Shown: positions 5,735 through 60,418 of the stretch, in pieces
How the letters are laid out: every line of letters starts with the position of its first letter
Position numbering within the stretch: the first letter of the stretch is position 1
Assembly (NCBI GenBank): GCA_945890645.1
Contig: CAMDCV010000020.1
Coordinates: 1-64,000 of the forward strand
Origin: Akkermansia muciniphila
GTDB taxonomy: Bacteria > Verrucomicrobiota > Verrucomicrobiia > Verrucomicrobiales > Akkermansiaceae
Length of the DNA stretch: 64,000 bases
Direction of reading: 5' to 3'
Program-made: the position numbers and the translations under genes
Notes under the pieces: model-generated
What the model saw: the letters and a program-made list of their open reading frames with translations, nothing else
Told to the model about the DNA's origin: nothing
The model's database searches: none

Positions 5735-5890
5735 TATCACAAGCGCGCCGGGCAACCGGCCTGATAGGGAAGCTCTTGGATGGAGCAGGAAATTGTTGGG
5801 GAAGCCGGTGTGATTCCGGCGCGGTACCGCCACTGTGTTTTTCGTTTGGCAACAGACGAAAAAAGTCAGATCGCCAGCCTTGTCACGCGT
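5735..5890 (+). promoter_or_regulatory. cobalamin (B12) riboswitch
   Basis: The leader upstream of the BtuB-like receptor carries the conserved core of the cobalamin riboswitch: GGGAAGCCGGTG, ATTCCGGCGCGG, then CCGCCACTGTG (about 5799-5837). A B12-box-like segment AGTCAGATCGCCAGCC follows at 5864-5879. Downstream, GACC and GGTC bases around 5897-5915 can pair near the start codon and could form the expression platform. High B12 should reduce synthesis of the receptor. The boundaries are approximate. Confidence 0.9.
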
Positions 5891-28591: not shown

Positions 28592-30016
28592 TTAGGCGAG
28601 TATTTTTTTCACCACATGTCCGTGAACATCCGTAAGGCGGAAGTCACGACCTTGCGCCCGATAGATGAGCTTGGTGTGGTCGAAACCTAACAGATGAAGA
28701 ATCGTCGCATTCAAATCGTGGACATGCACTTTATCCTCGATCGCATTGAAGCCGAGGTCGTCAGTTTTGCCGAGTTGGTAACCGCTTTTCACACCACCGC
28801 CGGCCATCCACATCGTGAAGGCATTCGGGTGGTGGTCTCGGCCATCGTTGCCGCCCTGCACCATCGGTGTGCGACCAAACTCACCGCCCCAGATGACAAG
28901 CGTTTCATCTAACAAACCGCGTTGCTTCAAATCCTGGATCAGTGCCGCACAGGCTTTATCGACATCGAGGCAGTTCTTTTTCAAGTCACCAACAAGGTTT
29001 CCATGCTGGTCCCAGGACTCGTGAAAGAGCTCGACAAAACGCACGCCACGCTCGACGAGACGGCGGGCGAGCAAACAGTTGTTCGCAAAGGATCGCTGGC
29101 CGGGCTTGGCCCCATACATTTCGCGGATATGCTCCGGTTCTAACGAAATATCCGTCACCTCCGGCGCGACATCTTGCATGCGGAATGCCATTTCAAACGC
29201 AGCAACGCGCGAGGCAATTTCTGGATCGCCGACGGATTCGAAGCGTTTTTGGTTAAGGAGATTGATCGTGTCGATCGTCTGGCGTTGTTGCTGGCGGGAG
29301 ATTCCTTTTGGATTGGAAAGGTATAGCACCGGCTCGCCAGTAGAGTTGAATGTCACACCATCGTGGACGCTAGGCAGAAAGCCGGAAGCCCAATTGTTAT
29401 TGCCTCCGGAAGGCCCCTTGAAGCCAGACGACATGACAACGAAGCCAGGTAGGTTGCTGTTTTCTGACCCAAGGCCGTAGCTGACCCACGAGCCGAGTGA
29501 AGGACGCCCGAATTGCTGCGACCCCGTGGACATAAGGATCTGCGCAGGCGCGTGATTGAAGGCATCTGTCTGCATCGAGCGAATCAACGTGATGTCATCC
29601 GCGCAAGAACCGATGTGTGGCAAAATTTCTGCCATCTCCATGCCGCACTCACCGAAGTGCTTGAAAGGAAATTTCGAGCCGAGGAGTTTATTTTCCGGGC
29701 GGATGAATGCCGACTGGTAACCCTTCAGCAATTCCGCGGGTGGATTGCTGCCATCCATTTTTCGCAGTACGGGCTTGTTATCGAAAAGATCGAGATGGCT
29801 CGGTGCCCCCCCCATGAAAAGGAAGATCACATTTTTCGCCTTGGCCGGATAATGCGGAGCGCGCGGTGCTTGCGGATTCGTGACCACGGAAGCTCCCGAT
29901 GCTTGACCGAGCATCGAAGTAAGCGCTACCGAGCCCAAGCTCAGGCCGCAGTCTTTCATGAACCAACGGCGAGAATACGCACGCTGGGTTTCGTGGAGGA
30001 TAGAGGGTGGGATCAT
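28592..30016 (-). CDS. DUF1501 protein (Tat-exported, sulfatase-fold relative)
   Basis: A 474-residue DUF1501 protein, a family in the alkaline phosphatase/sulfatase superfamily. A twin-arginine signal (SRRWFMKD) precedes a hydrophobic stretch ending near QASG. Core blocks include FLFMGGAPSHLDLFDNKP, the conserved WGGEFGRTP and DHHPNAFTMWMAGGG. It starts four bases after the upstream PSD1 gene, the standard order, and the two are usually presumed to work together in polysaccharide or heme-linked export processes in Planctomycetota and Verrucomicrobiota. The function is not established. Confidence 0.9.
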   Translation of the reverse strand: MIPPSILHETQRAYSRRWFMKDCGLSLGSVALTSMLGQASGASVVTNPQAPRAPHYPAKAKNVIFLFMGGAPSHLDLFDNKPVLRKMDGSNPPAELLKGYQSAFIRPENKLLGSKFPFKHFGECGMEMAEILPHIGSCADDITLIRSMQTDAFNHAPAQILMSTGSQQFGRPSLGSWVSYGLGSENSNLPGFVVMSSGFKGPSGGNNNWASGFLPSVHDGVTFNSTGEPVLYLSNPKGISRQQQRQTIDTINLLNQKRFESVGDPEIASRVAAFEMAFRMQDVAPEVTDISLEPEHIREMYGAKPGQRSFANNCLLARRLVERGVRFVELFHESWDQHGNLVGDLKKNCLDVDKACAALIQDLKQRGLLDETLVIWGGEFGRTPMVQGGNDGRDHHPNAFTMWMAGGGVKSGYQLGKTDDLGFNAIEDKVHVHDLNATILHLLGFDHTKLIYRAQGRDFRLTDVHGHVVKKILA

Positions 30017-30020
30017 GTGG

Positions 30021-33000
30021 TTAGTTCTTGGTGATGGTTTCGTCGAGGTTCAACAGCACGCGCGCGACAGCGGTGGCGGCGGCTAATTGATCGAGCGGAT
30101 GAGCGGAAAGATCGAGAGTGACGGGGCGGTAATTTTCTAACAAAATTTTCATTTGTTCGGGATCAGCTTTGAGAGATGCCTCATAAAAAGATGTGAGTGT
30201 GGCAAGTTCTTGAGCATCAGGAAGTCGTGCAGTGCAACGTTGAAAGGCACGAGAAATTTTTTCCTGAGTGCTTCCCGAATCTGTGAGGATGCGGTGGGCG
30301 AGCCCGAGCGCTGCTTCGACCGAGACTTGTTCGTTGAGTGTGACTAAAGCCTGCAATGGGGTGGTGGAAAGGGTGCGTCGAACACAGGAAACTGAGCCGT
30401 TGGGAGCATCGAAGGTAGTCAGCATCGGATAAGGCACGGAACGGAAGCGGAACGTATAAAGCGCTCGTCGGTAGCGCTGGGAATCGGTTTCGACGACCCA
30501 GGTTTTGGGGCCATAAGAAACCGGTCTTTGGAATAGGTAGTCAGGTGCTGGCGGATAAACACTGCGCCCACCGAGTGACGTATCGAGCAAACCAGAAGTC
30601 GCCAACTGAATATCACGAACCGTTTCCGCAGGGGCGCGGAAACGTGGGCCGCGTGCCAACAAACGGTTCTTGGGATCGCGTTCGCGCAACTCTTCACTGG
30701 CGAGAGAATTTTGTTGATAGGTCGCGCTGCAAACAATCAAGCGGTGCAAGCGTTTCACATCCCAGCCACTGTCCATGAATTCGCATGCCAACCAATCGAG
30801 CAACTCCGGGTGAGACGGTCGCGCCGCCTGGTGACCAAAATCTTCTGAGGTCTCTAACAAGCCAATACCAAAATACGCTTGCCACACCCTGTTCACAAAA
30901 ACACGAGCCGCGACCGGTGATTTCGGATCGACCAGCCACTTCGCAAACGTGAGTCGCGACTCTGGATCGCCCGGCGGAAGCGGATGAAGGAAAGCTGGCA
31001 CATGCGGCTTCACGACATGCTTGGGATGAGTTTGCTCACCGCGTTCGAATAGTCGCGTTTCGCGAGGAGTTTTATCTTCTCCCGCGACCAAGGCCCATGT
31101 CGCCAAGGGAACCTTTGCATAAAGAGCTTCGATCGTTTTCGTTTGTTCCGAAAATTCTGTTTGGTTCTCGCGCCAGTGGGCGAAGATTCTTGCCTCCTGC
31201 TCTTTGCTCCGCTCGGCTACCGGTTTCTCCAATGCCTCGCGCACCAGCGGCGGCAATTGATCGAGCGCGTTCGGCAAAGTAGAAGAAACGGATAAGCGAA
31301 CGCGACCCAAGTTATAGGTCATGTTGTCATCGGAATTGAAACCACCGTGATTTAACGAAAGAGTGTAATAGAAATAGGTTTTCCCCGCTCCCTCCAACGG
31401 TTGCTCCAATTCAAAAGTCAGCACTGCGGGATCGTTATTGCGCGCTGGATCTCTCTCATGTGTCCACGCCGTTTTGTTATCACCATCCAAAGCAAAAGCC
31501 ACTGGCCCCGTGCGCCTATCATCCGGTTTTCCTCCCGCATTATTGGGAAAACGTTTCGGATCCAACGCAACTTCCGGTGGATTCACACTCGCCACTGGAT
31601 TTTTAAATTTCAGCTTCTCGGTTTTTGCCGCATCTTTGCCTCCTTTTAAATTGAACTCAGTCAGCGCACCCGTGCCGCGTGTGGATCGTCCCGGCCCGTT
31701 CATCGGCAAATAGGGATCGTTCATCACCTCGAGACGGGCAGAACGGATCACTGGCAAATCAGATGAGCAAGTAAACGTCTCACCGCCACGTGTCGCGGCA
31801 TAGCCCATGTTGATCACTGACTTGTCTGCTAGTGGCCAAAATTTCTGTCCTGAATCACCAAGCTGATACAGCTCAAGCGCTTCCCACTCGGTCCGCGGCA
31901 ATGCCAACATCTCGCGCTGCCATGTTTGGTATTTTTCTTCCACCGCAGGCGATGACTGACGGATGCCTTGATCGATTGCGCCAATCTCTGCAAGCAACTG
32001 CTCCTTCGTTTTTTTCTCCTCAGGTGTGTGAGCCGCAACAGAAGTTTCACTTACGCCATTCAGAAACGCGAACATGCCGTAGTATTCGTCGTGGGTGAGA
32101 GGATCATATTTATGCGTGTGGCATTGCGCGCATTGCGCTGTCAGACCGAGCACTGATTTTCCAATTGCATCGATGCGGTCGAAAATGCCCTCGACGCGGA
32201 ATTGCTCGGGCTTGGCTCCCCCTTCCTCGTTGGTCATCGAGTTGCGAAGAAATCCAGTAGCAATCCGATCGTCTTGATCGGCATTCGGCAGCAGATCCCC
32301 AGCGATTTGTTTCACGACAAACTCATCATAGGGCATGTTTTGATTCATCGCAGCCACTACCCAGTCACGATAGAAGTGATGGTAGCGCGGCAGGTCTTTT
32401 TCATAGCCTGCGGAATCCGAATAGCGCGCGGCATCCAACCACTCACGTCCCCAACGCTCGCCGAAATGCGGACTCGCGATCAGCCGCTCGACTTCTTTTT
32501 CCGCATCTCCCGACGCGGAAAGTTCTTCCAAGGTCGGCGGCAGACCAATCAAATCTAACGAAAATCGACGCAGTAAAGTCGCTTTGTCCGCAACAGACGA
32601 TGGCGACAAGCCTTCGGTTTCCAGTCGTGCCATGACAAAGGCATCAATCGGATTTTTCACCCATGCAGCATTTTTCACCTGTGGCACTGTCGGACGCTCG
32701 GGAGACTTGAACGCCCAGTGAGTCCCCCACTCCGCGCCCTCCGTGATCCACTGGCGAATGAGCGCCACCTGCTCCGGCGACAACCGTTTCTTTTTATCCG
32801 GCGGTGGCATGACCTCATCAAGGTCGGTGTGAGTGATGCGCTCCATAAGGATCGACGCTCCTGCATCGCCCGGAACGATCGCCTTGCCACTGTCTCCGCC
32901 CTTCAATGCCTTTTCGCGCACGTCGAGACGCAAGCCGCCCTCCACTTTGGCCTCATCAGGGCCGTGACAAGCGTAACAATTTTCCGAGAGAATGGGTTGA

Positions 33001-33080
33001 ATCTGGGTGGTAAATTCGATCTTCCCCGCCCAGGCAACTGACGTCATCAAAATCAGAGAAAGTAAGGTGGTAAAGCGCAT
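30021..33080 (-). CDS. PSD1/DUF1549/DUF1553 planctomycete cytochrome c protein
   Basis: A large exported protein of 1019 residues, start ATG at 33080 with signal peptide ending VAWA. The N-terminal planctomycete cytochrome c (PSD1) domain has the heme motif NCYACHG. DUF1549 follows, with WVKNPIDAFVMARLE and a second heme-like motif CAQCHTHKYDP. A beta-rich region and then DUF1553 complete it (typical VFVNRVWQAYFG, SHPELLDWLA). The family is abundant in these phyla and its biochemical role is unproven. It forms a unit with the downstream DUF1501 gene; a PAS-AraC regulator lies divergently upstream. Confidence 0.92.
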   Translation of the reverse strand: MRFTTLLSLILMTSVAWAGKIEFTTQIQPILSENCYACHGPDEAKVEGGLRLDVREKALKGGDSGKAIVPGDAGASILMERITHTDLDEVMPPPDKKKRLSPEQVALIRQWITEGAEWGTHWAFKSPERPTVPQVKNAAWVKNPIDAFVMARLETEGLSPSSVADKATLLRRFSLDLIGLPPTLEELSASGDAEKEVERLIASPHFGERWGREWLDAARYSDSAGYEKDLPRYHHFYRDWVVAAMNQNMPYDEFVVKQIAGDLLPNADQDDRIATGFLRNSMTNEEGGAKPEQFRVEGIFDRIDAIGKSVLGLTAQCAQCHTHKYDPLTHDEYYGMFAFLNGVSETSVAAHTPEEKKTKEQLLAEIGAIDQGIRQSSPAVEEKYQTWQREMLALPRTEWEALELYQLGDSGQKFWPLADKSVINMGYAATRGGETFTCSSDLPVIRSARLEVMNDPYLPMNGPGRSTRGTGALTEFNLKGGKDAAKTEKLKFKNPVASVNPPEVALDPKRFPNNAGGKPDDRRTGPVAFALDGDNKTAWTHERDPARNNDPAVLTFELEQPLEGAGKTYFYYTLSLNHGGFNSDDNMTYNLGRVRLSVSSTLPNALDQLPPLVREALEKPVAERSKEQEARIFAHWRENQTEFSEQTKTIEALYAKVPLATWALVAGEDKTPRETRLFERGEQTHPKHVVKPHVPAFLHPLPPGDPESRLTFAKWLVDPKSPVAARVFVNRVWQAYFGIGLLETSEDFGHQAARPSHPELLDWLACEFMDSGWDVKRLHRLIVCSATYQQNSLASEELRERDPKNRLLARGPRFRAPAETVRDIQLATSGLLDTSLGGRSVYPPAPDYLFQRPVSYGPKTWVVETDSQRYRRALYTFRFRSVPYPMLTTFDAPNGSVSCVRRTLSTTPLQALVTLNEQVSVEAALGLAHRILTDSGSTQEKISRAFQRCTARLPDAQELATLTSFYEASLKADPEQMKILLENYRPVTLDLSAHPLDQLAAATAVARVLLNLDETITKN

Positions 33081-33149
33081 TAAGGGAATACTACTCGTAA
33101 ACCAAAATCTTTCCATGTCAAAAGCGGCATTTTATGGTAAAATCCGCGC

Positions 33150-37249: not shown

Positions 37250-37417
37250 TTCGACACGGCGCCACGATAGAAGCCCAACTCAAGCAAAATCCATATCGAT
37301 CTTCGCCTCAATCCAATCACTAATGCTCAGGCGATAACGGATCAATTCACCATTCCAAAGGACCACGAATAACAAATTCTCATTTTATGCCTTCCCCTAT
37401 TTTTCGATAATTTTCAT
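37250..37417 (-). pseudogene. decayed 5' end of a second tyrosine recombinase gene
   Basis: On the minus strand, from an ATG at 37417, the sequence aligns for roughly 50 codons with the start of the recombinase at 39805 (shared MKIIEK, then conserved NG-ELIR-like and EAK positions), but it has an in-frame stop after MKIIEK and other disruptions. The relationship extends into the noncoding leader and a copy of the tRNA-Arg 3' end. The wider stretch 37168-37754 has no gene: its remainder is an AT-rich leader and 37553-37754 shows nothing I recognise. Confidence 0.75.
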
Positions 37418-37512
37418 CCTGAGCATTTCCTCGTTTTGGGCAAATGAAGCAGAAAAAAATCAAAATAGTATCTAAGCTGGATACTGCTGCGGAAAATCTG
37501 AACTAGTAAATT

Positions 37513-37552
37513 CCGCAAACCATAGCTGCGTATGGTGCACCCTAAGGGACTT
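37513..37552 (-). repeat. far copy of the tRNA-Arg 3' end (putative att site)
   Basis: Forty bases matching 39963-40002 at 36 of 40 positions in the same orientation. The matched block covers the last 20 bases of tRNA-Arg including the CCA end, plus 20 bases beyond it. It lies just past the recombinase leader remnant, so it looks like an attachment site left by an integrated element. Confidence 0.75.
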
Positions 37553-37754
37553 CGCCATAGTCTATGTCATCCACGAGAATCATGAAAAAAGGCGGATGGG
37601 TGCTTGCCAAGCATTCGCGGGAAAGACCGAGACCCACAAAAACCCTAACGGAATAGAAAGGTGAATGATGAAAGCCCTCAGGCTGTGTGAGAGCAAAGTC
37701 TGATGCTATTGTCTCATGATTTCCGTGAGCAATCGATGCGGTTTAAGCCCGGGA

Positions 37755-38564
37755 TCAATCGTGGATCAATTCACGAAACGCCTCGAACTCGCCGGGATTC
37801 ATGGCAACGAGGTTGGAGGGCGCGGGAAATTTTCCTTCGTTCACGTCGTCGATGTATTCGCGAAAGGCAGCAATCCGCTCGAGCTGAAGGCGGCGGTATT
37901 CTTCGAGAAAATTTCGATAGGCCTTGGCATGGCGCGGCAGGCGCTCCTCGTATTCGCCGAGAATGTCGTCGGAGAAAAGAAACTGCGTGTCGCAGCCAGT
38001 CCCTGAGCCGAGTGACATCAGGAGCAACGAGGTGCGAGAGCAAAGGAACGCGGCGAGTTCGTGTGGGACGCATTCGAGTTCGGCCGCGTAGGCCCCAGCG
38101 CTCTCCAACGTTTTCATGCGCTGGTAAAGTCGCGCGGCTTCATCGGCCGTCTTGCCGATGGCACGGTAGCCGGTCCAAGTGACGTGGCGCGGCACCATGC
38201 CGAGGTGGCCGACGACGGGGATGCCTTCGCGCGCCATTTGTTCAATCAGAAACGGACTACCAGAGCAATACACCGAGCTAGCCCCGGCTTCCAGAGCTTG
38301 GAAGGAAATTCGGATTGCCTCCTCGGCGCTGGCCATGCCGTGCGGAGTCGCGCAGGAAAGGAAGCTGTTTGGCGCGGCGGCGACTAACAAAGGGAACCGC
38401 GCTTGCGCGGCGGGGTTATCGTAACTGCAGCTCATCAGATCGATGCCTGCCGCGGCGGCCGCCGCCGCTTCATCGGGGGATTTAATGTGGATGTGGGTGA
38501 GCTGGCGTTTGCCTTTGAGCTGACGCAGATCGTGGACTGTGTATTTTTTGCGAGGACGGATCAT
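37755..38564 (-). CDS. PanB-like (ketopantoate hydroxymethyltransferase family) protein without the usual metal ligands
   Basis: A 269-residue TIM-barrel protein clearly related to 3-methyl-2-oxobutanoate hydroxymethyltransferase. It retains the opening DLRQLKGK, the block GIPVVGHLGMVP with the conserved His, and ELECVPHEL, which holds the family's catalytic Glu. The metal-ligand sites differ: the usual VGDSLG, DLPF-type and KIEGG segments read SCSYDN, SCATPH and YCSGSP, and a loop after the first is shorter. A usual Mg-dependent aldol reaction is therefore doubtful. It lies between a far att copy and a truncated recombinase, so it may be element cargo. Confidence 0.83.
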   Translation of the reverse strand: MIRPRKKYTVHDLRQLKGKRQLTHIHIKSPDEAAAAAAAGIDLMSCSYDNPAAQARFPLLVAAAPNSFLSCATPHGMASAEEAIRISFQALEAGASSVYCSGSPFLIEQMAREGIPVVGHLGMVPRHVTWTGYRAIGKTADEAARLYQRMKTLESAGAYAAELECVPHELAAFLCSRTSLLLMSLGSGTGCDTQFLFSDDILGEYEERLPRHAKAYRNFLEEYRRLQLERIAAFREYIDDVNEGKFPAPSNLVAMNPGEFEAFRELIHD

Positions 38565-38741
38565 ACAGAAGAACGGTGTGAAAGGAACTGATGAGCAAGG
38601 GTAGCATGGACGCGAATGCCTGTTCGAGTTTTAATTTTCTGCCGTCTTTTCGGTTTCGATGCCCAAGTCACCTTGTTGAGGAATCCTTGGATCGCTTCGA
38701 CAGTGCGAAACCAAGATGGCTCGAGAAAAATGATTCTGTTC

Positions 38742-38791
38742 GATCAAGCTAGGGGAGAACCATATCTTGGTTTTTCCTATCCCGAAGGGAT
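38742..38791 (+). repeat. 50-base dispersed repeat (copy 1) with adjoining hairpin
   Basis: The 50 bases from 38742 are the reverse complement of 45522-45571 at 49 of 50 positions. Immediately after, 38804-38838 is a strong hairpin (CCCTGGGT arms around CCGCTCAGCGG). The gap from 38565 to 38923 has no recognised gene; an open frame on the plus strand ending at 38997 is unassigned and may be a gene remnant. Confidence 0.75.
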
Positions 38792-38923
38792 GGCCTACGA
38801 AAGCCCTGGGTTGCTCCGCTCAGCGGGGCTACCCAGGGTCATCAACCAAACCCGTGAATGATGCTGCCCAGAAGCATCTCGAAAAATTGACCATCCCCGA
38901 AAGCCGCCGCACCATGAGGCGCC

Positions 38924-39805
38924 CTAACGGGCAACCGATCCTGCTGACGTCCTACATGCTGGAAGAAGAACCGGACGACCTTGAAGCACGGCGATAGCTT
39001 CCGGCGTCATCGGGATCACCTTGATCTTCCCCCTCTTCATCTTCACCGTCATCTCGCCTTGGACGAAATCGATCATCGACCACTCCAAAGTCGCTGCCGC
39101 AGTACGCCGCAGCCCGGTAGAAGCTAAGAACCGCAAAAACGCAGCCCCATCCGGATCCTCTCCCTCCACCATCGCGAAAAACTCTCTCACTACTGAAATC
39201 GATGGCACTCGAATCATCCGAGAATTGACACGCAGCATTGGGATTTTCGCCAAGGACTCCGTGGCATTCTCACCCAACAGTCCTCGTTTTTCAGCCCAAG
39301 GCACAAAGCTCCGCATATAAGTGCGCAAGTGATTGGCTGCAGAGCCAAGTTCTTCACCTTGGCGTTTGATGCCTGTAGCACGATACGCCTTCCAAACTTT
39401 AACAGGATCGAAGTCTTCCCATTTCTTACAAAACTTTTCAATCACTCGCTTCGTCCGGTCTGCCATTTCACGCGTGCCATCCGCCAATAGTATTAAGTCA
39501 TCGTGATGCTCTTTCAAAGCATCCGCTATAGTCATTTTCTCCTGATCGATCGTTACCGCGACCTCTTTTACTTCCTTCGCGTCGTGTGCGATCAACTCCG
39601 CGGCCACAGGCACAGGCGCTGGCGCTGGCACAACAGGGTCATGCGCAGTGACGAACCCCAAGATGCCAATTTCACGGATTTTCTTTTTCGCCTCATTCAA
39701 ATCTGTTGTGCCCAGACTTTGACGAATCAACTTCCCATTACGACGGATTACAAAATACAAGTTTCCGTTTTCATGCCTTCCAATATTTTTTTCGATGATT
39801 TTCAC
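38924..39805 (-). pseudogene. truncated tyrosine recombinase (integrase)
   Basis: From a GTG at 39805 this encodes 293 residues. It has an N-terminal arm-binding-like region, a core-binding helical domain (KVWKAYRATGIKRQGE region) and the first part of the catalytic domain, with the first catalytic Arg in ASTGLRRTAA and the beta-strand KRGKIKVIPMT. The His-x-x-Arg motif and the catalytic Tyr are absent: similarity ends at AIAVL and the last 20 or so residues read as unrelated sequence. It is therefore probably inactive. It reads away from tRNA-Arg, beside it, as tRNA-targeting integrases do. Confidence 0.8.
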
Positions 39806-39875
39806 CCCTAGCTTTTCCTTGTTTTGGGCAAAAGAAAAAGAAAAAGGTGAAAACAGATTCTAAAGGGTCCAATTT

Positions 39876-39933
39876 GTATCTAATGGGTCAAATTAGTATC
39901 CAAATAGTATCCAAAAGTATCTTAGTTGGATAC
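39876..39933. promoter_or_regulatory. phased GTATC repeats, possible recombinase arm-type sites
   Basis: GTATC occurs at 39876, 39896, 39907 and 39917, with an inverted GATAC at 39929. The spacings are 20, 11, 10 and 12 bases, close to the DNA helical repeat. They lie between the recombinase start and the tRNA att site, where arm-type sites are expected. The decayed left copy keeps a GTATC at 37468 and a GATAC at 37480, at the same 12-base spacing. Confidence 0.5.
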
Positions 39934-39962
39934 TCCTAACATAAATTCCGGACCAGAAAAGC

Positions 39963-40002
39963 CCGCAAACCATTGCTACGTATGGTACACCCGAAGGGAC
40001 TT
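39963..40002 (-). repeat. near copy of the tRNA-Arg 3' end att block
   Basis: The 3' end of the intact tRNA-Arg and its flank, matched by 37513-37552 at 36 of 40 bases. The 2.45 kb between the two copies holds the truncated recombinase, a dispersed repeat and the PanB-like gene. Confidence 0.75.
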
Positions 40003-40059
40003 GAACCCCTAACCTTCTGATTCGTAATCAGACGCTCTATCCAATTGAGCTACGGGTGC
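39983..40059 (-). tRNA. tRNA-Arg (ACG)
   Basis: On the minus strand the acceptor GCACCCG pairs with CGGGTGT (G-U at the first pair), followed by discriminator A and an encoded CCA. The D arm GCTC/GAGC, anticodon stem TCTGA/TCAGA with loop TTACGAA, and T arm GGGGTTCAAGTCCC complete the cloverleaf. Anticodon ACG is normally modified to ICG and reads CGU, CGC and CGA. It is intact despite the adjoining integration remnants. Confidence 0.96.
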
Positions 40060-45337: not shown

Positions 45338-45521
45338 TTCGCGACAGATGTAACACAGAACCCACCGCTTCCGCAATCTTTCGCCGTGATTATTTCAGAA
45401 AACCAGAAGCAAAACAACGAGGGCTGCGCTTCTTTCAATATCACTTTAGGCTTCGCTAGGCAGCCTGGGGATTCAGCGGAAATGATAAGCCTAAAGCAGG
45501 CCGTCAGGCTGGCGGTGAGCA

Positions 45522-45571
45522 ATCCCTTTGGGATAGGAAAAACCAAGATATGGTTCTCCCCTAGCTTGATC
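45522..45571 (-). repeat. 50-base dispersed repeat (copy 2)
   Basis: Reverse-complement match to 38742-38791 at 49 of 50 bases. Beside it, a stem of CTTTAGGCTT / AAGCCTAAAG frames about 33 bases (45443-45496). The rest of the 45338-45637 gap between divergent ispG and the TraB-PhoD gene holds nothing else I recognise. Confidence 0.75.
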
Positions 45572-45637
45572 GGCCTGGCGGCCTCCCCATGATTTTCTCC
45601 TTTACGCCGACTACAACGATTTTAGGATGTCGGTAAT

Positions 45638-49603: not shown

Positions 49604-49708
49604 GAAAATTTCCTACTAATCGTGCTGTTGAATCGATTCTTCCTCATCGTCCATTCAACCCAATTTCACAGATTGCAAAACCAATTTCTCAAGTCTACTG
49701 TAGCTCAG

Positions 49709-50659
49709 ATGAAAAAAGCGCATTTTGTTCTCCCTCTGTTACTTGTCAGTCGTCTCGCTGCACAAGAGAGCATCGAACGTCTTGATTCGGCACTGGATAA
49801 GATCATCGCCAGAGATGCCACGATCGAGACATTGTGCCAAGGGTTCCAGTGGTCGGAAGGCCCAGTATGGGATGAAAAGGAACAGCGTCTGTTATTTTCT
49901 GATGTGCCGCGCAATACGATTTTCGAATGGCGCGAGGGTGCGAAGGAAGCAACCATTTTCATGAAACCCTCCGGCTACACTGGCGTATCCGAAATTAGCG
50001 CATCCGGTGGCTCAAACGGACTTGCTTTCGATGCAAAAGGTCAGCTCATTTTCTGTGAACATGGTGACCGCCGTATCTCGTATCTCACGCCCGATGGCGG
50101 TAAGCGCACACTCACCGATCACTTCGAAGGCAAACGCTTTAACTCGCCCAATGATCTCATCATCGCCAAGAACAGCAGCATTTTTTTCACTGATCCGCCC
50201 TACGGTCTGCCGAATGAAAAACTGCGCGAACTTGATTTTAATGGTGTCTTTCGCGTGGGGACAGATGGCAAAGTGCACCTGCTTGTCAAAGACCTCGAAC
50301 GCCCCAACGGCATTGCGCTCTCACCCGATGAAACGATCCTCTATGTCGCCCAGTCGCACAAGCCGCGCGCTGTAATCATGGCCTATCCGTTGTCCGCAGA
50401 TGGCAATGTCGGTGAAGGAAAAGTATTCTTCGATACCAAAGACTTGACTGGCCCTGGTCTTCCCGACGGCCTCAAGGTTAACGCTCAAGGCATCATATTT
50501 ACCACCGGCCCCGGCGGCGTTCTCATACTGAGTGCCGAGGGAAAATTACTCGGTCGCATCATCTGCGGTCGCTCCACGGCGAATGTCGGCTTCGGACCAA
50601 ACCAAAAATCACTCTACATCACTTCGAAAGACCGCGTCTTGCGCGTGAAACTGCTCTGA
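49709..50659 (+). CDS. exported SMP-30/gluconolactonase-like beta-propeller
   Basis: 316 residues from the ATG at 49709 (signal peptide MKKAHFVLPLLLVSRLAAQ). SMP-30/gluconolactonase propeller features: WSEGPVWDEKEQRLLFSDV, NSPNDLII, FFTDPPYGL and PDGLKVNAQG, with the metal-binding E, N and D. The likely activity is hydrolysis of a sugar lactone in the periplasm. It lies in a same-direction run with nupC and the DUF2721 gene. Confidence 0.9.
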   Translation: MKKAHFVLPLLLVSRLAAQESIERLDSALDKIIARDATIETLCQGFQWSEGPVWDEKEQRLLFSDVPRNTIFEWREGAKEATIFMKPSGYTGVSEISASGGSNGLAFDAKGQLIFCEHGDRRISYLTPDGGKRTLTDHFEGKRFNSPNDLIIAKNSSIFFTDPPYGLPNEKLRELDFNGVFRVGTDGKVHLLVKDLERPNGIALSPDETILYVAQSHKPRAVIMAYPLSADGNVGEGKVFFDTKDLTGPGLPDGLKVNAQGIIFTTGPGGVLILSAEGKLLGRIICGRSTANVGFGPNQKSLYITSKDRVLRVKLL

Positions 50660-50666
50660 TTTTATC

Positions 50667-51089
50667 ATGGAACTTACACTCACCAGTCCGGCAGTTTTAT
50701 TTCCTGCCATTTCTTTGCTTTTTCTCGCCTACACCAACCGTTTCCTGCATCTCTCCGCGCTCGTGCGCAAACTCCATTCGGATTGGCTACTCGGCAACGA
50801 ACCAGCCATCCGAGCACAAGTGCAAAATCTCCGCCTCCGCATCGAACTAATCCGCTGGTGCCAAGCGGTGGGAGTTATTAGTTTGATCGGTTGTCTGGCA
50901 TCGATGCTTGCTCTACTCGGCCAATGGCACAACACTGCTTTGACTCTATTTGCCATCAGCTCCGTGACTATGGCATTCTCATTGCTGCTCGCGCTTTGGG
51001 AAATTCTCATTTCCGGCGGTGCACTGAATATCTACCTCAATCAGATGTCCCTTCCACCACAAACGAAAAGCTCATCGGAACAGCAATAA
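50667..51089 (+). CDS. DUF2721 membrane protein
   Basis: A 140-residue protein with three hydrophobic segments (about 8-23, 65-85 and 90-110) and a typical DUF2721 pattern with LRLRIELIRWCQAVGV. The family is of unknown function. It begins seven bases after the SMP-30 stop, so it is probably in the same transcript, and a short gap then leads to the PSD1 gene. Confidence 0.78.
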   Translation: MELTLTSPAVLFPAISLLFLAYTNRFLHLSALVRKLHSDWLLGNEPAIRAQVQNLRLRIELIRWCQAVGVISLIGCLASMLALLGQWHNTALTLFAISSVTMAFSLLLALWEILISGGALNIYLNQMSLPPQTKSSSEQQ

Positions 51090-51142
51090 ATTGTCCACAC
51101 CCGAAAGATCAGACCCGACTCCGCGTATTTTATTATCGATTT

Positions 51143-54100
51143 ATGAAAGCCCCGTGCACCATAGCCCTTCTCTTGGCAACTCTCTCTATAGTGGCCTGCA
51201 ACAAACCTACTTCCACTGCCCAGCAAAAGCCGGGCGAAGAAGCACCAGCTGTTAAATCTAGCTCGACTGTTATTGCGCCAACCACGGTAAACATGGGCAA
51301 GCTGCCCGATGTCGTTTCTTTCAACGAGCATATTCAACCGATTTTCGCCGATACCTGCTACCACTGCCACGGGCCCGATTCCGGCACTCGCGAGCCTAAA
51401 TCAGAACCATTGCGCCTCGACCGAGCCGAATACGCTTTCGCCCCGCGCGAAGACGGCAAGCCTGTGATCAAACCCGGCGACCCAGCGGGCTCGACGATGA
51501 TTCAATTGATTAAAGAAAAAGATCCCGACATCCGCATGCCGCCGCCCGAGGCACACAAGGAAATTTCCGCACGCCAATTGGCATTATTTGAACGCTGGAT
51601 CGAACAAGGCGCCAAGTACGAAGAACATTGGGCGTTCATTCCTCCCGTCAAAACAGCCGTGCCTGAAGTGAAACAAAAAGACTGGGTCAAGAACCCGATC
51701 GATAACTTCATTCTCGATAAACTTGAACAACAAAATTTCGCACCAAATCCGGTCGAAAATCCCCGTCGTCTCTATCGTCGTCTGAGTTTCGATCTCACTG
51801 GACTCCCGCCACTTCCTGCCGCTGTCGATGCCTTTGAAAAAGCATTCGCCGCCAATCCTGACAAAGCCATCGCCGATGCCGCCGATGCCATGATGGCCTC
51901 CGAGCAAGGTGCCGAGCATTTCTCGCGCCAGTGGCTTGATGCCATTCGTTATGCCGACACGCACGGTATCCATATCGATAACTATCGCTCGATCTGGCCG
52001 TACCGCGATTGGGTCATCAATGCCTTCCGAAACAACATGCCATGGGATCAATTCACCATAGAACAAATCGGTGGCGACTTACTTCCAAATGCCACGCTCG
52101 ATCAAATCGTCGCCACGGGCTACGGTCGCTGCCTCCCTACTACCGGTGAGGGCGGCGCGATCGCCGATGAATATTTTGCCATCTACGCTGGTGACCAAGT
52201 CGCTACTACTTCTGCTGTTTGGCTCGGACTCTCCACGCAGTGCGCTGCTTGCCATGACCATAAATTTGATCCGGTCAGCCAAAAAGAATTTTATCAATTG
52301 ACTGCCTTCTTCCGCAATACGCCGATGTCTGGTCTGGACGGTAATCGCGCCGATCACCCGCCTAACATTTTCGTTCCAGCCATGGCTGATCGCGAGCGCT
52401 CGAAAACCATCGCAGCGGAAATTACTACAGAGGAAAAAAATCTTGCGGCACGCCAAAAGACTGCGGAACCAGACTTCCAGCGCTGGCTCACCACAGCAGC
52501 TACCCCAAGCGCCAATGTAGCAGACCCATCTCTGCAACTGCATCTTCCCTTTAATGAATCAGATGGACCTTTCCGTGGCACTTTGCTCGGTCAGCCCTAC
52601 GAAAACATTTCGCCCATTGCACGTCGCGACACCCCTATCGGAAAAGCCCTCCAAGCCAATGCCCAAGTTCTATCCATCGGTGATGTCGGGAATTTTTCGC
52701 GCAAGGATTCTTTCACTTATTCGACTTTCGTTTTCATCGAGGGCGAACCTACCGGTGCAGTTTTCTCTCGCATGGACATCAAGGCTGGCCATCGCGGATG
52801 GGATTTCTGGCTAGATGCCGGCAAACCCACTGCTCACGTCATCGATACCTACCCCAAGAAATCCACAAAAATCCACGCAAAAGATCCGCTGGAAGCGAAC
52901 AAGTGGCATCACATCGCTGTCGTGTTTGATGGCTCAAAACCAAACGAGCAATACTTGCGCATGTTCGTCAATGGCCAACAAGTGAATCACGAGACTACTC
53001 AGAAAAATGTTGGCAACGACATCCAAACGAAAGCACTTTTCTTGGTGGGTGGTCGCACCGGTGGCGACAACATCGGCGGCAATGTTTCGCTTCAAGATCT
53101 GCGCATTTACAATCGTGCCATCTCCGCTGCGGAAATTACCGCATTGTCCACCCGTATGCCTCTGGAAACCATCCTCGCCATGCCTGCGGAACAACGCACG
53201 CCTCAGCAAACGAAAGCACTTTATGAATTCTTCCTCGCCAAGCACGATACCGTCGGTCAAGGAATTCTCACAAAAATTGAGGCGCTCAAAAAAGAACAAA
53301 CCGAGATCACCGCGCGTGGTGCCGTCTCGCTCATCATGCAGGAAAAACCCAACTCGGAACCTTCCGCTCATGTCCTCAATCGCGGCTCCTACGCGGATGT
53401 CGGCGATAAAGTCGGCGTCGGTGTGCCGAAGGTGCTGCATCCCATGACCGATGCGATGCCGAAGAACCGACTCGGCCTCGGACAGTGGCTCGTTGACAAA
53501 AAAAATCCACTCGTTGGACGCGTTACCGTCAATCGTCTCTGGGGTTATCTCTACGGCACTGGCATCGTCGAAACCGTCGAGGACTTCGGCATCATGGGCG
53601 CACGCCCCAGTCATCCAAAACTTCTCGATTGGCTCGCCGTCGAATTCATGGAATCCGGTTGGAATTATCGTCACATGGTCAAACTGATGGTCACCTCGGC
53701 TACCTATCGCCAGTCCGGAGCCGTCAGCCCTGAGAAGCTCGAGCGCGATCCACTCAATCGCTTGGTCGGTCGTGCCCCACGCTACCGCCTCGAAGCCGAG
53801 CCACTGCGCGATGGCATCCTCCATCAAGCAAATCTTCTCGTGCAACAAGTCGGCGGTCCTTCAGTAAAACCGTATCAGCCGGAAGGCATCTGGGAAGCCG
53901 TTGCCATGACGCAGTCGAACACCCGCAACTACGTCGCAGACACCGGCGAGAAACTCTATCGGCGCTCGATGTACACGCTGTGGAAACGCACAGCTCCTCC
54001 TGCATCGATGGAAATTCTCAATGCCCCGAGCCGCGAAACATTTTGCGTGCGCCGCGAGCTTACGAACACGCCTTTGCAAGCCTTCGTCACCATGAACGAT

Positions 54101-54409
54101 CCGCAATTTGTCGAGGCCTATCGTCAACTCGCCACCCTCGCAATTCAGTCCGGTAGCGACCCCACCGCACGCCTGCAATTCATCGCCCAGCGTTTGATTG
54201 CTCGTGATCTCTCCGCTGAGGAAATCACCACCATGCAGCAAACTTTGGCCGCCGCCTCGAAACACTATACCGCTAACGCCGAAGACGCCACCAAGCTCAT
54301 CAGCATCGGAGCCAGCAAAGCAGATCCACAAGTGCCCGTCGCAGAACTCGCCTCTTGGACCATTGTCACTAACCAAATTTTCAACCTCGACGAAGCCCTT
54401 ACAAAATAA
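51143..54409 (+). CDS. PSD1/DUF1549/DUF1553 cytochrome c lipoprotein with inserted LamG-like domain
   Basis: 1088 residues from the ATG at 51143. A lipobox (SIVAC) suggests lipid anchoring, unlike the other PSD1 protein here. The PSD1 domain has heme motif TCYHCHG. DUF1549 follows ([15 protein letters not shown], with [11 protein letters not shown]). Residues about 470-680 form an inserted concanavalin/LamG-like domain ([29 protein letters not shown]). DUF1553 closes the protein ([25 protein letters not shown]). LamG domains commonly bind glycans or proteins, so the insert may give substrate contact. A DUF1501 gene follows 20 bases later. Confidence 0.9.
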
Positions 54410-54429
54410 CGTTTCACTCTATTTTTGTT

Positions 54430-55881
54430 ATGAACGATATCGACCTCTTTAATTCCGCTCTGACACGCCGTCACTTCTTCCGCAAGAACGCGACCGGTCT
54501 CGGCTACGCTGCACTCGCTTCGTTGCTCGGTCAAGACGCTCTCGGTGCTGCTTCGGGCGAAGTGCCACCCGCCCTTGCGCACATCGCGCCGAAGGCGAAA
54601 CGCGCGATCTACCTCTCGATGATCGGAGCGCCCTCGCAGTTCGAGACTTTCGATTACAAACCCAAGGTTGAATTTAATAAAGACCTCAAGGGCTTTCTTG
54701 AAGCGTCCGGCCAGCGCCTCACGGGCATGACATCCGGGCAATCCAAATTTCCCGCTGCGCCCTCGATTTTCAAATTCGCGCAACACGGCAAAGACGGCAC
54801 TTGGGTTTCTGAACTGCTACCATGGACCGCGAAAATGGCAGATGACATTTGCGTGATTCGCTCGATGCAAACCGATGCGATCAATCACGAGCCCGCCAAC
54901 CAATTGATGTACACCGGCAACATGGTCGGAGGCAAAGCCTCCATCGGTTCTTGGCTGTCGTATGGTCTTGGTTCGATGAACAATGACTTGCCTACCTTCG
55001 TGGTGCTTCACGCCTCGCACTCGAACCCCGGTTCTAACGTCCAAGCCATTTCCTCACGTCTCTGGGGCTCCGCATTTTTGCCTGGCAAGTACGCGGGTGT
55101 CTCGCTGCGTTCCAAAGGCGACCCCGTCCTTTTCCTACAAGACTCTCCCGGCGTCCCGCGCGAGCTGCGTCGTCAGATGCTCGATGGCTTAGCCACAATG
55201 AATCAAAAATCCTACGAAGCCGTTGGCGATCCCGAAATCCAAACGCGCATCCAGCAATACGAAATGGCATTCCGCATGCAAACAAGCGTGCCGGAACTTG
55301 CTGATACTAGCAAGGAAACTGAGGCCACTTACAACCTTTACGGCCCTGACTCAAAGAACCCCGGCACCTTCGCCAGCTCTGCCTTGATGGCACGCCGTCT
55401 CATCGAACGAGGCGTCCGCTTCGTACAAATTTTCCATCGCGGTTGGGACCAACACGGTAACCTACCGCACGACATCACCGCGCAGTGCCGCGACATCGAC
55501 CAAGGTTGCTACGGACTGGTGCAAGACCTCAAACAACGCGGCATGCTCGATGACACTCTCGTAATTTGGGGTGGCGAATTCGGTCGCACCACTTACTCGC
55601 AAGGTGCTCTCAGTCAAACCAACTACGGTCGCGACCACCATCCCCGCGCCTTCTCGATCTGGATGGCGGGCGGTGGCATCAAAGGCGGCTTCAACTACGG
55701 TGAGACCGATGAAATGTCGTTCAACATTACTTCCGGTGCCATGCACGTACGCGACCTACACGCCACCATCCTCAATCAACTCGGCATCGATCACCTCCGT
55801 CTCTCCTACAAATACCAAGGCCTCGACAACCGCCTCACCGGCGTCCTACCCGCCAAAGTAGTCAAAGACCTATTGGCCTAA
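54430..55881 (+). CDS. DUF1501 protein (Tat-exported), second copy
   Basis: A 483-residue DUF1501 protein. The twin-arginine-like signal is TRRHFFRKN with a following hydrophobic stretch ending LGAASG. Core blocks resemble those of the first copy: [25 protein letters not shown] and [15 protein letters not shown]. It is paired with the PSD1 gene upstream in the same order as the other pair, which suggests the two families act together. The function remains unknown. Confidence 0.9.
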
Positions 55882-55882
55882 C

Positions 55883-55906
55883 CGTGGCGGAGGCGTCCTC
55901 GCCTCC
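55883..55906 (+). repeat. 24-base palindromic repeat, copy 1
   Basis: Identical to 62653-62676. It forms a short hairpin (GGAGGCG with CGCCTCC). Both copies sit just after the stop codon of a plus-strand gene, consistent with a dispersed post-gene palindrome. Confidence 0.65.
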
Positions 55907-55927
55907 CAGCCAAATCTAACAATCAAA

Positions 55928-56033
55928 GGAAAGGAGCATCCCGCTCAGCGGGACAGGCAGGCATCTGCCTGTGTATCAAAACCACAAACAGGCGAGACGC
56001 CGGCATGTCCCGCAAAGCGGGGTTCTCCTTTCC
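55928..56033. repeat. 106-base complex inverted repeat
   Basis: Arms GGAAAGGAG and CTCCTTTCC enclose nested smaller hairpins (CCCGCT-GCGGG, CAGGC-GCCTG, CCCGC-GCGGG). No gene lies in it. The rest of the 55882-56208 gap has the 24-base palindrome and a short C-rich tract, and I see no promoter or other feature that I can name with confidence. Confidence 0.65.
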
Positions 56034-56208
56034 CAAAGACACACAAATCCCCCCTCCCCCAAATTCCTAAGAAAAATCATAGCTTCTGCTCCGCTCATAG
56101 CCTGTTGCACTGGTCACAGACCTGTTTAGCCCGTTGAATTTTTTTCAACCGATCCTCGACAAATCCGGCGCAAGCAATCAGTTTCAATTCAGCACCAATC
56201 TCAATCGC

Positions 56209-57324
56209 ATGGAACCAACACAGGACTTCGCCACACCGGTCACCCCTTCTTCTGACTTCGGCTTCACCCCCGTCGCACCCGAAACTACCCCCCCGAGCCC
56301 TGTCGCTTACGATGGTCTGCCTCCCGACGATGTCGCGGCGATCAATGAGCTCGGTCAAACCTACGAAGCATTTTGTGCGGAGCTTGGGAAAACAATCATC
56401 GGTCAGCAACAAGTCATCGAAAACCTCGCGATCTGCCTTTTCGCTCGCGGCCACGCCCTGCTGATGGGTGTGCCCGGTCTTGCCAAAACGCTGCTTGTCT
56501 CCTCTGTTGCGCAAACATTCGACCTCTCGTTCAACCGCATCCAGTTCACACCGGACTTGATGCCTGCCGACATTACTGGCACGGACATCATTCAAGAAAC
56601 CGGCACCGGTGGTCGCCGTGAGTTCCAGTTCATCAAAGGCCCGCTGTTCGCGAACATCGTGCTCGCCGACGAAATCAACCGCGCTCCCGCCAAAACCCAA
56701 TCGGCCATGCTCGAGGCCATGCAGGAGCATAAGGTCACCGTGCTCGGCAATACCTACACACTCGCCCCGCCGTTCTTCGTGCTCGCCACACAAAACCCGA
56801 TCGAACAAGAAGGCACTTATCCACTTCCCGAAGCGCAGCTCGACCGCTTCATGTTCCTCATCGAAGTCGGCTATCCAACCGCCGAGGAAGAAAAACGCAT
56901 CGCCCGAGAAACCACCGGAGCAGCAAAGGGCAAGCTCACCCAGCTTCTCGGTGGCGAAAAAATTCTCGCTTTCCAACAGCTCGTTCGTCGCGTCCCAGTG
57001 CCGGAACACATTTACGACTACGCTGTTGCCATCGTTCGTAAAACACGACCCACCGAAGGCGATGCTCCCGCATGGCTCAAGGAACTCGTCGGCTGGGGTG
57101 CCGGACCACGCGCTGTGCAGTACCTGATCCTCGGTGCCAAGGCTCGCGCCGCTCTGAAAGGCTCCTACATGGTGCGCATGGAAGACATCGAGGCCGTCGC
57201 CTCGCCCGTTCTTGCCCACCGCGTTATCACCAACTTCGCTGCGGAATCACAAGGCATGACTTCCAAAAAAGTCGTCGAACGCCTCGTCGCCGAAATGCGC
57301 ACACAAACGCAATCACCCGCGTAA
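56209..57324 (+). CDS. MoxR-family AAA ATPase
   Basis: 371 residues if the ATG at 56209 is the start; a TTG at 56134 would add 25 unlikely residues. The AAA+ core has the Walker A block GVPGLAKT, Walker B-like LADEINRA and sensor ATQNPIEQEGTYPLPEAQLDRF. MoxR ATPases act as chaperones that mature or assemble protein complexes, with VWA-domain partners. Here a DUF58 gene and two VWA-type membrane-protein genes follow on the same strand, the usual layout. Confidence 0.93.
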   Translation: MEPTQDFATPVTPSSDFGFTPVAPETTPPSPVAYDGLPPDDVAAINELGQTYEAFCAELGKTIIGQQQVIENLAICLFARGHALLMGVPGLAKTLLVSSVAQTFDLSFNRIQFTPDLMPADITGTDIIQETGTGGRREFQFIKGPLFANIVLADEINRAPAKTQSAMLEAMQEHKVTVLGNTYTLAPPFFVLATQNPIEQEGTYPLPEAQLDRFMFLIEVGYPTAEEEKRIARETTGAAKGKLTQLLGGEKILAFQQLVRRVPVPEHIYDYAVAIVRKTRPTEGDAPAWLKELVGWGAGPRAVQYLILGAKARAALKGSYMVRMEDIEAVASPVLAHRVITNFAAESQGMTSKKVVERLVAEMRTQTQSPA

Positions 57325-57354
57325 TCTCACGATTCGCACCCATTTTCCACCCTC

Positions 57355-58251
57355 GTGCCCACGCAGCTTCTCGATCACGATTTGCTTGTCCGACTCGGAG
57401 CCATCCCGGTCGAGGCACGCTTGCCGATGCTTGGCAACGTCGCGGGTAAGCACCGCTCCCCGCACCGCGGATCGTCGGTAGAATTTGCCGAATATCGAAA
57501 ATACGTGCCTGGCGATGACACACGTCGTCTCGATTGGAAAGCCTACGCCCGCTCGGATCGCTACTACATTAAAGAGTTCGAGGCCGACACCAACCTACGC
57601 GCCTATTTTGTCGTCGATAACTCAGGCTCGATGGCCTTCGCGGAAAAGGGCATGGCAAAAATCGAATACGCCAGTCGTATCGCCGCTAACCTCGCGTATC
57701 TCCTCGTCAATCAAGGCGATGCCGCCGGACTATCTGTCTGCCGCGATACCTTACACATCGAAATTCCCCCGCGTCGCCGCCCCGCGCACTTGCAGTTGAT
57801 CAATCACACCCTGCAAGACCTCAAGCCCGAAGGCGCCACCGGTCTCGTCGAAGCCCTCCATCACATTGCGGAAAAAATTGGCCAGCGCGCCGTGGTCGTC
57901 ATTCTCTCGGATTTGTTTTGTGACACGGTCGCTCTCGAAGAAGCACTGCAGCACTTACGTTATCGCAAGCACGACGTCTGCATGTTCCACCTGATGGACC
58001 CACAAGAAATTGCCTTCCAGTTCGATAAACCACATCGCTTTGTGGACATGGAAGACAACACTGTGTTGGTCGTAGAGCCGAATCTCATTGCCGATGAATA
58101 CCAAGAAGCACTGCGCGAGTTTTTGACCAACGTCAAAAGCGCCTGCCACAACGTTCACGCCGACTACCAACTCGTCACCACCGATTCCCCCCTAGAGCCC
58201 CTACTCCGCGACTTCCTCCTCAACCGCTTACCCAAAAAAGGAAAACGATAG
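57355..58251 (+). CDS. DUF58 protein (VWA-like)
   Basis: A 298-residue protein of the DUF58 family, GTG start at 57355, 30 bases after the MoxR stop. The typical block RGSSVEFAEYRKYVPGDDTR is split by WKAYARSDRYYIKEFEA. A VWA-like metal site is visible as VVDNSGSM. DUF58 proteins normally partner MoxR and may bind metal through this motif. No signal peptide or clear membrane segment was seen, so it is probably cytoplasmic or membrane-associated. Confidence 0.88.
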   Translation: MPTQLLDHDLLVRLGAIPVEARLPMLGNVAGKHRSPHRGSSVEFAEYRKYVPGDDTRRLDWKAYARSDRYYIKEFEADTNLRAYFVVDNSGSMAFAEKGMAKIEYASRIAANLAYLLVNQGDAAGLSVCRDTLHIEIPPRRRPAHLQLINHTLQDLKPEGATGLVEALHHIAEKIGQRAVVVILSDLFCDTVALEEALQHLRYRKHDVCMFHLMDPQEIAFQFDKPHRFVDMEDNTVLVVEPNLIADEYQEALREFLTNVKSACHNVHADYQLVTTDSPLEPLLRDFLLNRLPKKGKR

Positions 58252-58405
58252 TCATTTTCCCACTCAAACAAATTAAAAATCAAACATCAACATTCGTAAA
58301 TCATCAATCAGACTCCAGACCACTTCGCTCCCAGACATAAGACATAAGATAAGAGTGATTGGTTATTAGTTAATAAAATTTCAGCATTTCAGTTTTTTTC
58401 CACCC

Positions 58406-60403
58406 GTGTCCTTCTACCAACAACCTCTGCTCTGGTTCCTTTGCGCCGCTGCGATTCCGGTGATCATTCACCTGTTGAATCGCCGTCGTCACAAGACCTT
58501 GGCATGGGCCGCCATGCAGTTCCTGCTCAAGGCGACACGCGAATCACGCGGCAAGAAAAAGCTCCGTCACATCCTCATCCTCACCGCCCGCACACTGGGC
58601 ATCGCTTGTCTCGCTTTTGCCGTCGCACGCCCCATGATTGGCGGACTACTGGGTTGGGGATCCAGTCAGATGGATACCGTCATCCTCGTTCTCGACCGCT
58701 CGGCGTCGATGGAAACTACTGGCGACAACACCACGGCTTCGCGACGCGAACTCGCCATCGACCGTGTGCGCGATGCGATGAAATCACTCGATGCCACACG
58801 CTTGGTGCTTATCGATTCCGCCACCGCCACACCCCAAGACATTCCCTCACCGGAAAGTCTGATGGAAATCACTAACACCCGAGCCACCGATTCCACTTCT
58901 AACATCCCCGCTCTCCTCCAACGCGCGGCGGAATTCATTGTCGAAACCCAACCGGGCAAAACAGAAGTGTGGATCGCCTCAGACATGCAATACGGCGATT
59001 GGGATAAAGAAAACGAGCGCTGGACCACTGCCATCGCCACGTTGCAAAGCGTGCCGCAAAAGCCATCCGTGCGCATCCTTTCACTCTCCACTCCCTCGAA
59101 ATCTAACGTCTCCCTGCGATTGTTATCCTCGTACCGCAGTGCCGATGAATTATTGTTAGATCTCGAAGTCCTGCGCTCGGGCGATGCGCTTGCGCCCATC
59201 AACCTGCCGCTCACGGTCGCACTCAACGGCACCAAAACCATCGACAGCATCACCGTGCCCGGCCAAATCTTGCGCTTTCAAAAACGAATCAAACTGGCAA
59301 AAAATCAAACCGAAGGACAAGGCTGGCTCAGCCTCCCCGGCGATGCAAATCCACGCGACCACACTGTCTATTTCACCTACGGTGCCGCGCGCCCGGTGAA
59401 ATCTCTCATCGTCAGTACCGCTGGCGAAGCCGCCAGTTATCTCGCCGCTGCCGCCGCACCTCCGGGTTACGACGGACAATCGAGCGAAACCATCGCACCC
59501 TCGCAATTTCTCACCAAGGTCGCTAGCCTCGGCGAGTTCTCGACCATCCTCTGGAATGCCCCACTACCGCAAGAAGGAGCCGCGACCGCAGTCCTAGATT
59601 TCCTCAACGCTGGTGGACATGTTCTGTTCTTCGCGCCGATAGAAAACAGCACGCTGAAATTCCAAAACATCCAGTGGTCGCCGATCACCAAGGCACCCGA
59701 TGGTAAATTTTTCATCCTCCAGCAATGGAATCATGATGACGGTCTGCTGCGCGATTCGCTCAGTGGCGTGCCGCTCGGCGGCCAAACCTTGCGCGCCATC
59801 AAACGCCAAATGCCCGAAGGTCCAGTCGGCACCAGCACCGTATTGGCAACATGGGATGACAACACTCCCTTTCTCAGTCGTATTGTGTTAGAACGCGGCA
59901 CGGCTTGGTTCTTCGCTACTACTCCGGACTACACCGCCAGCAACCTCGGCGATGCTCATCTTCTTCTGCCCGCCGTCCAGCGCGCTGTGCTCGCCGGGGC
60001 CACACGCTTCGATGCCGCCATGCTTGCTGAAGTGAATCGCGGTGAAGCCCTGCCACGCAACACGGAAGTGCGCGCGCGCATCGATGACTTCGCTGTTGAT
60101 ACCAATAGCGATCCTACCTTCAGCGCCGGTGTCTATCGACTCGGCGAACGCGTGATCGCCGCCAACATCCCTACCGCAGAACACGACACGCTGGCCTTGC
60201 AAAAGAACGAGCTCAAGCCGCTCTTCGAAGGCATTTCCTTCAGCACTTTTGAAGATACCGCGGCATCCACCACCGATAGCGAGGAACGCGAAATCTGGAA
60301 ATTGTTCCTTGCCGCTGTGCTCTTTTTCCTCATCGCCGAAGCCCTGCTGTGCCTGCCGAAAGCCAGCGCCGCCGCCCGAGTTGCTTCGCCTAAACCTGCC
60401 TAA
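58406..60403 (+). CDS. BatA-like VWA membrane protein
   Basis: A 665-residue protein, GTG start at 58406. The N-terminal BatA domain has FLCAAAIPVIIHLLNRRRHKT and a second hydrophobic segment. The VWA domain shows the MIDAS-type motif LDRSASM. A large periplasmic-looking region follows, and the C-terminal anchor is LFLAAVLFFLIAEALLCL. It is the third gene of the MoxR set and would act as the membrane partner. The 154-base AT-rich gap before it may carry its own promoter. Confidence 0.88.
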   Translation: MSFYQQPLLWFLCAAAIPVIIHLLNRRRHKTLAWAAMQFLLKATRESRGKKKLRHILILTARTLGIACLAFAVARPMIGGLLGWGSSQMDTVILVLDRSASMETTGDNTTASRRELAIDRVRDAMKSLDATRLVLIDSATATPQDIPSPESLMEITNTRATDSTSNIPALLQRAAEFIVETQPGKTEVWIASDMQYGDWDKENERWTTAIATLQSVPQKPSVRILSLSTPSKSNVSLRLLSSYRSADELLLDLEVLRSGDALAPINLPLTVALNGTKTIDSITVPGQILRFQKRIKLAKNQTEGQGWLSLPGDANPRDHTVYFTYGAARPVKSLIVSTAGEAASYLAAAAAPPGYDGQSSETIAPSQFLTKVASLGEFSTILWNAPLPQEGAATAVLDFLNAGGHVLFFAPIENSTLKFQNIQWSPITKAPDGKFFILQQWNHDDGLLRDSLSGVPLGGQTLRAIKRQMPEGPVGTSTVLATWDDNTPFLSRIVLERGTAWFFATTPDYTASNLGDAHLLLPAVQRAVLAGATRFDAAMLAEVNRGEALPRNTEVRARIDDFAVDTNSDPTFSAGVYRLGERVIAANIPTAEHDTLALQKNELKPLFEGISFSTFEDTAASTTDSEEREIWKLFLAAVLFFLIAEALLCLPKASAAARVASPKPA

Positions 60404-60418
60404 CAGTTTTTTCTCGTA

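Follow-up and report, generated by a model that had tools for sequence, protein, structure and literature searches.

In a 64-kb stretch of Akkermansia muciniphila DNA (the window), the 3′ end of an arginine tRNA gene occurs twice in the same orientation, each time beside the start of a broken tyrosine recombinase gene. What sequence of events could have left two such modules at a single tRNA? The intact gene, tRNA-Arg(ACG), is encoded on the minus strand at 39983-40059 (ARAGORN; Rfam RF00005, 69 bits), with its 3′ end at 39983. The 40 nucleotides at 39963-40002, 20 of them closing the tRNA and 20 lying past its end, match 37513-37552, 2.45 kb downstream of the tRNA, at 36 of 40 positions. This repeat, claimed by a sequence-only reading of the window, is confirmed: the runner-up in the window reaches 23/40 (plus strand) or 22/40 (minus strand), and a match of at least 36/40 is expected by chance about 7 × 10⁻¹⁰ times in the whole genome (binomial). 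A 21-bp core on the minus strand, consisting of the final 20 tRNA bases and one more (39982-40002), is present in only two copies in the 3.8-Mb genome, as determined by a pattern search with up to three mismatches in 21 bases and a concordant second pattern. The second copy (37532-37552, minus strand) carries two mismatches to the tRNA end. The same search of the genome identified no far attachment site for the left element, in agreement with the sequence-only reading. Similarity between the modules does not run through the whole tRNA; it begins abruptly 20 bases inside it, as fits a recombination core. Judged by these sequences, the 3′ end of tRNA-Arg(ACG) would be the attachment target and a reconstituted attL, and the core at 37532-37552 would be shared by two elements, as the far end of the right one and the near end of the left one.

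Both copies share the same order of parts away from the tRNA: core, 19-bp arm, dyad, leader and tyrosine-recombinase start. The element-side arm of the right core (39963-39981, minus strand) lies past the tRNA end and recurs by sequence match in the left module (37513-37531, minus strand); together with the tRNA end, the right arm forms an imperfect inverted repeat (ACCAT...ATGGT). Further out, the right module contains AGTATC repeats at 39895, 39906 and 39916 and the dyad AGTATC-N7-GATACT (39895-39934), and the left module has the same dyad at 37467-37485, with no strand assigned to either. The 64-kb window has no other copies of the dyad than those at 37467 and 39916, which lie 65 and 66 bp from their cores. 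We consider the AGTATC repeats and the dyad putative arm-type recombinase sites. Compared with the left leader, the right one includes two extra AGTATC repeats and is about 60 bases longer. When leader and recombinase start of the two modules are aligned, 130 of 174 bases are identical (75%), with a local score of 119, whereas 285 comparisons with stretches elsewhere in the window never exceed 33; the similar leaders and recombinase 5′ ends described earlier are therefore real. Both modules possess a complete attL-side anatomy.

The right recombinase (38924-39805, minus strand) starts with GTG at 39805, 177 bp from the core, and so adjoins the tRNA end as in a genomic island. It is an open frame of 293 codons related to the integrases of PHROG 1 (E 3e-26), with homology ceasing near 38984. 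Since the match to PF00589 covers only positions 25-79 of 172, the C-terminal catalytic boxes, including the tyrosine, are gone, and the first Arg box is retained; lacking a complete catalytic domain, the gene is classed as a remnant and not as an active element. On the left, a 5′ remnant on the minus strand extends from an ATG at 37417 to 37302. Thus, the long truncated gene of the sequence-only reading stands, but its left counterpart of about 50 codons with one stop has to be revised to about 40 codons, interrupted by two in-frame stops and by frameshifts that compensate one another. No close relative of the right recombinase was detected in genome contigs, viral contigs, phages, plasmids, PDB sequences or 388 genomes of the phylum, and comparison with 57 relatives yielded weak matches only (22-35 bits, 26-32% identity). 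Its position suggests a specificity for tRNA-Arg. The exact att-plus-arm pattern is absent from viral contigs. Near the break point lies a dispersed palindromic repeat (38741-38848, strand not assigned) that folds into a strong hairpin and has four copies in the genome, window positions 45519-45572 among them; it was not found in nine congeners. This repeat may have contributed to the deletion of the recombinase.

On the basis of these sequence features, we propose that elements integrated site-specifically, one after another, at the 3′ end of tRNA-Arg(ACG) and later decayed, leaving this locus as their scar, and we put the probability of this reading at roughly 0.75. A first tyrosine-recombinase element would have integrated with its recombinase start beside the tRNA, whose 3′ end it would have rebuilt. 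Another element, with a recombinase related to that of the first and of identical specificity, would later have entered at this tRNA end and displaced its predecessor outward. In this order, which we infer, the element next to the tRNA would be the newer one, and the core at 37532-37552 would be the place where two elements of one family meet. From the newer element, the catalytic C terminus of the recombinase and probably the greater part of the body would subsequently have been lost, a PanB-like gene perhaps remaining; of the older one, nothing would be left but core, arm, dyad, leader and about 40 codons. The tRNA 3′ end is directly repeated at the far side of the right element; because arm, dyad, leader and a recombinase start come after this second core, it is not simply where a single island ends. 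Two modules of the same orientation, each with an attachment site and its own recombinase start, share one target. Of the three attachment sites of a tandem array (tRNA, internal and far), the genome holds two, so that the array is classed as incomplete; the far one may be lost.

We inspected the tRNA in nine other members of the genus (G001-G009), searched via the YkuD gene located right of it. The tRNA was seen in 8 of the 9 and lies beside the same YkuD gene in 7; in G008 it is located elsewhere, and in G005 a pattern search did not find its end. In five congeners (G004, G001, G006, G002 and G008) a different recombinase begins at tRNA-Arg(ACG), and some of these copies are broken. Downstream of the tRNA, G004 encodes an open integrase of 457 codons; the G001 copy has one stop and is followed about 2 kb on by a second integrase fragment; in G006 and G002 the start of this integrase runs to the contig end; and G008 has a decayed integrase start about 90 bases from its tRNA. 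No recombinase was detected at the tRNA in G003, nor within 599 bases downstream of it in G007, where a reading frame resembles, as judged by eye, the start of an insertion sequence. The G009 contig ends at the final base of the tRNA. As the 457-codon integrase and the window recombinase share merely 22% identity over 133 residues, the site was entered more than once. Elsewhere in the order, seven relatives of the 457-codon integrase start downstream of other tRNAs in the same direction (Val, Tyr, Met, Leu twice, Arg-TCT and Ser), so that the tRNA-then-integrase layout of the window is a usual one here. Because five congeners have a different recombinase starting there, tRNA-Arg(ACG) is a recurrent integration hotspot in the genus, one that at least two distant lineages of tyrosine recombinase have used. 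Serial integration at one tRNA with later decay, as the sequence-only reading had proposed, is well supported by the two attL-side modules together with this use of the tRNA by congeners.

In favour of the same reading, sequence further downstream of the tRNA is largely unshared among congeners with long contigs. The order of genes in the left flank differs between species, and the radical SAM gene (27050) and the tRNA-Arg-YkuD block are on separate contigs in congeners. A clean empty site was not found in any colinear relative, the relatives being mostly draft assemblies with a left flank that is not colinear. This counts against serial integration, as do the missing far attachment site of the older element and the lack of a close relative of the recombinase in the collections searched. 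On contig C1 of G001, relatives of window genes 49622-62650 begin about 5 kb past the radical SAM gene, and the tRNA-Arg-YkuD block is on another contig; relative to this contig, window positions 28213-49622 represent a rearrangement of about 20 kb between species. A separate observation in G001 concerns contig C7, where an open frame with a signal-like start (L045:13244-14614, minus strand) neighbours an integrase fragment some 3.6 kb away from tRNA-Arg(ACG). It combines a near-canonical ubiquitin domain (PF00240, E 2e-29) with an autotransporter β-barrel (PF03797, E 1e-16) and is possibly an assembly chimera; a literature search returned nothing fitting such a frame by title or abstract. At the other end of the window, an AdoCbl-II riboswitch (5784-5884), barely above the gathering score, is located upstream of the gene at 5932.

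The PanB-like gene (37755-38564, minus strand; PF02548, E 1e-35) is situated between the two cores. Scoring 93 bits, it stays under the NCBIfam cut-off for the PanB equivalog (207.55), and a second PanB homologue is encoded on contig C14 of the genome. Its third-position GC content of 0.69 is the highest of 18 genes compared. Dozens of Verrucomicrobiales have relatives of it, at 69-80% identity, in whose fetched neighbourhoods neither integrase has a match (E 1e-3), and no relative was found in viral contigs; outside the window it is an ordinary Verrucomicrobiales gene. No congener examined carries it at the tRNA-Arg(ACG) site; in particular, none has it there without recombinase sequences, an arrangement that would have spoken against the sequence-only reading. 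The assignment of this gene to the right element, put forward in that reading, holds as far as its location between the cores goes. Position makes it possible cargo, and the relatives elsewhere have no related integrase nearby. The companion proposal, which ascribes the SGNH, sulfatase and esterase genes to the left element, is unsupported: neither a far attachment site nor a composition border was detected, and the SGNH gene has no conserved neighbourhood in four relatives. Base composition and third-position GC content show no clear step that would indicate element borders. A Pfam scan of the main genes from 25.8 to 43.5 kb identified neither a relaxase nor any other transfer gene of the kind that an ICE or IME requires. 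That the 2.45-kb core-PanB-core stretch forms a minimal cis-mobilisable unit, still excisable by a related integrase in trans, and that such units help to spread the PanB-like gene among Verrucomicrobiales, strikes us as far-fetched.

Might the locus have arisen in another way? The two modules belong to one family and are 2.45 kb apart, as would also follow from one integration and a local tandem duplication of attachment site, leader and recombinase start, with later divergence and loss. A random duplication would not be expected to stop at the boundary of the recombination core 20 bases into the tRNA, and with 25% divergence of leader and start it would have to be old; we therefore hold it to be unlikely. 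Little credence is likewise given to the arrival, in a single transfer, of a ready-made composite of two accreted elements that subsequently decayed. Composites of this sort are known to be transferred (PMC5704250), yet this scenario needs accretion in a donor, and there is no direct evidence for it here.

A different objection is that the genes from DUF1501 (28592) to PanB (38564) constitute one cluster that was hit by recombinase debris, so that neither attachment-site copy bounds cargo. In G017 (L135) and in L150, which may be the same or close genomes and thus possibly a single observation, the PanB-like gene is convergent with the closest relatives found of the window DUF1501 (73-75%) and DUF1549/DUF1553 (58-59%) genes, which in the window are located at 28592-33116, beyond the left module. 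This hints at a common history of the genes flanking the left module and makes any simple split of the cargo less convincing. However, the orientation of the genes in G017 and L150 differs from that in the window, the linkage between the DUF genes and PanB is missing at other PanB loci, and a core that matches the tRNA end, followed in order by arm, dyad and leader, would be odd for random debris. We consider this objection quite improbable, and retain serial integration as the preferred reading.

Arrays of this kind have precedents. At the ssrA gene of Dehalococcoides, rows of islands are bounded by short direct repeats of the RNA 3′ end (PMC3146451); as in the window, serial islands lie downstream of one RNA gene, and an integration module is situated beside the repeat in many of them, with others lacking it. 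In contrast to that tmRNA system with its serine recombinase, the present locus involves a tyrosine recombinase, a tRNA-Arg and two modules, both of which are broken. A second parallel is the accretion of ICEs, IMEs and CIMEs, in which integration, decay and further integration at the same target generate a tandem at one attachment site (reviewed in PMC5704250, citing Pavlovic 2004 and Bellanger 2011). Unlike those elements, the present locus exhibits neither transfer genes nor a far attachment site, and no element type is assigned. With the 457-residue integrase of its congeners the window recombinase shares the tRNA-Arg(ACG) target, the direction from tRNA to integrase and decay in some species; it differs in being of another lineage, 22% identical over a part, and each of the two has its own leader. 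The locus is an ordinary scar of tandem accretion at a tRNA, by a mechanism well known in other phyla, and its attachment, arm and leader sequences offer a handle for seeking live elements.
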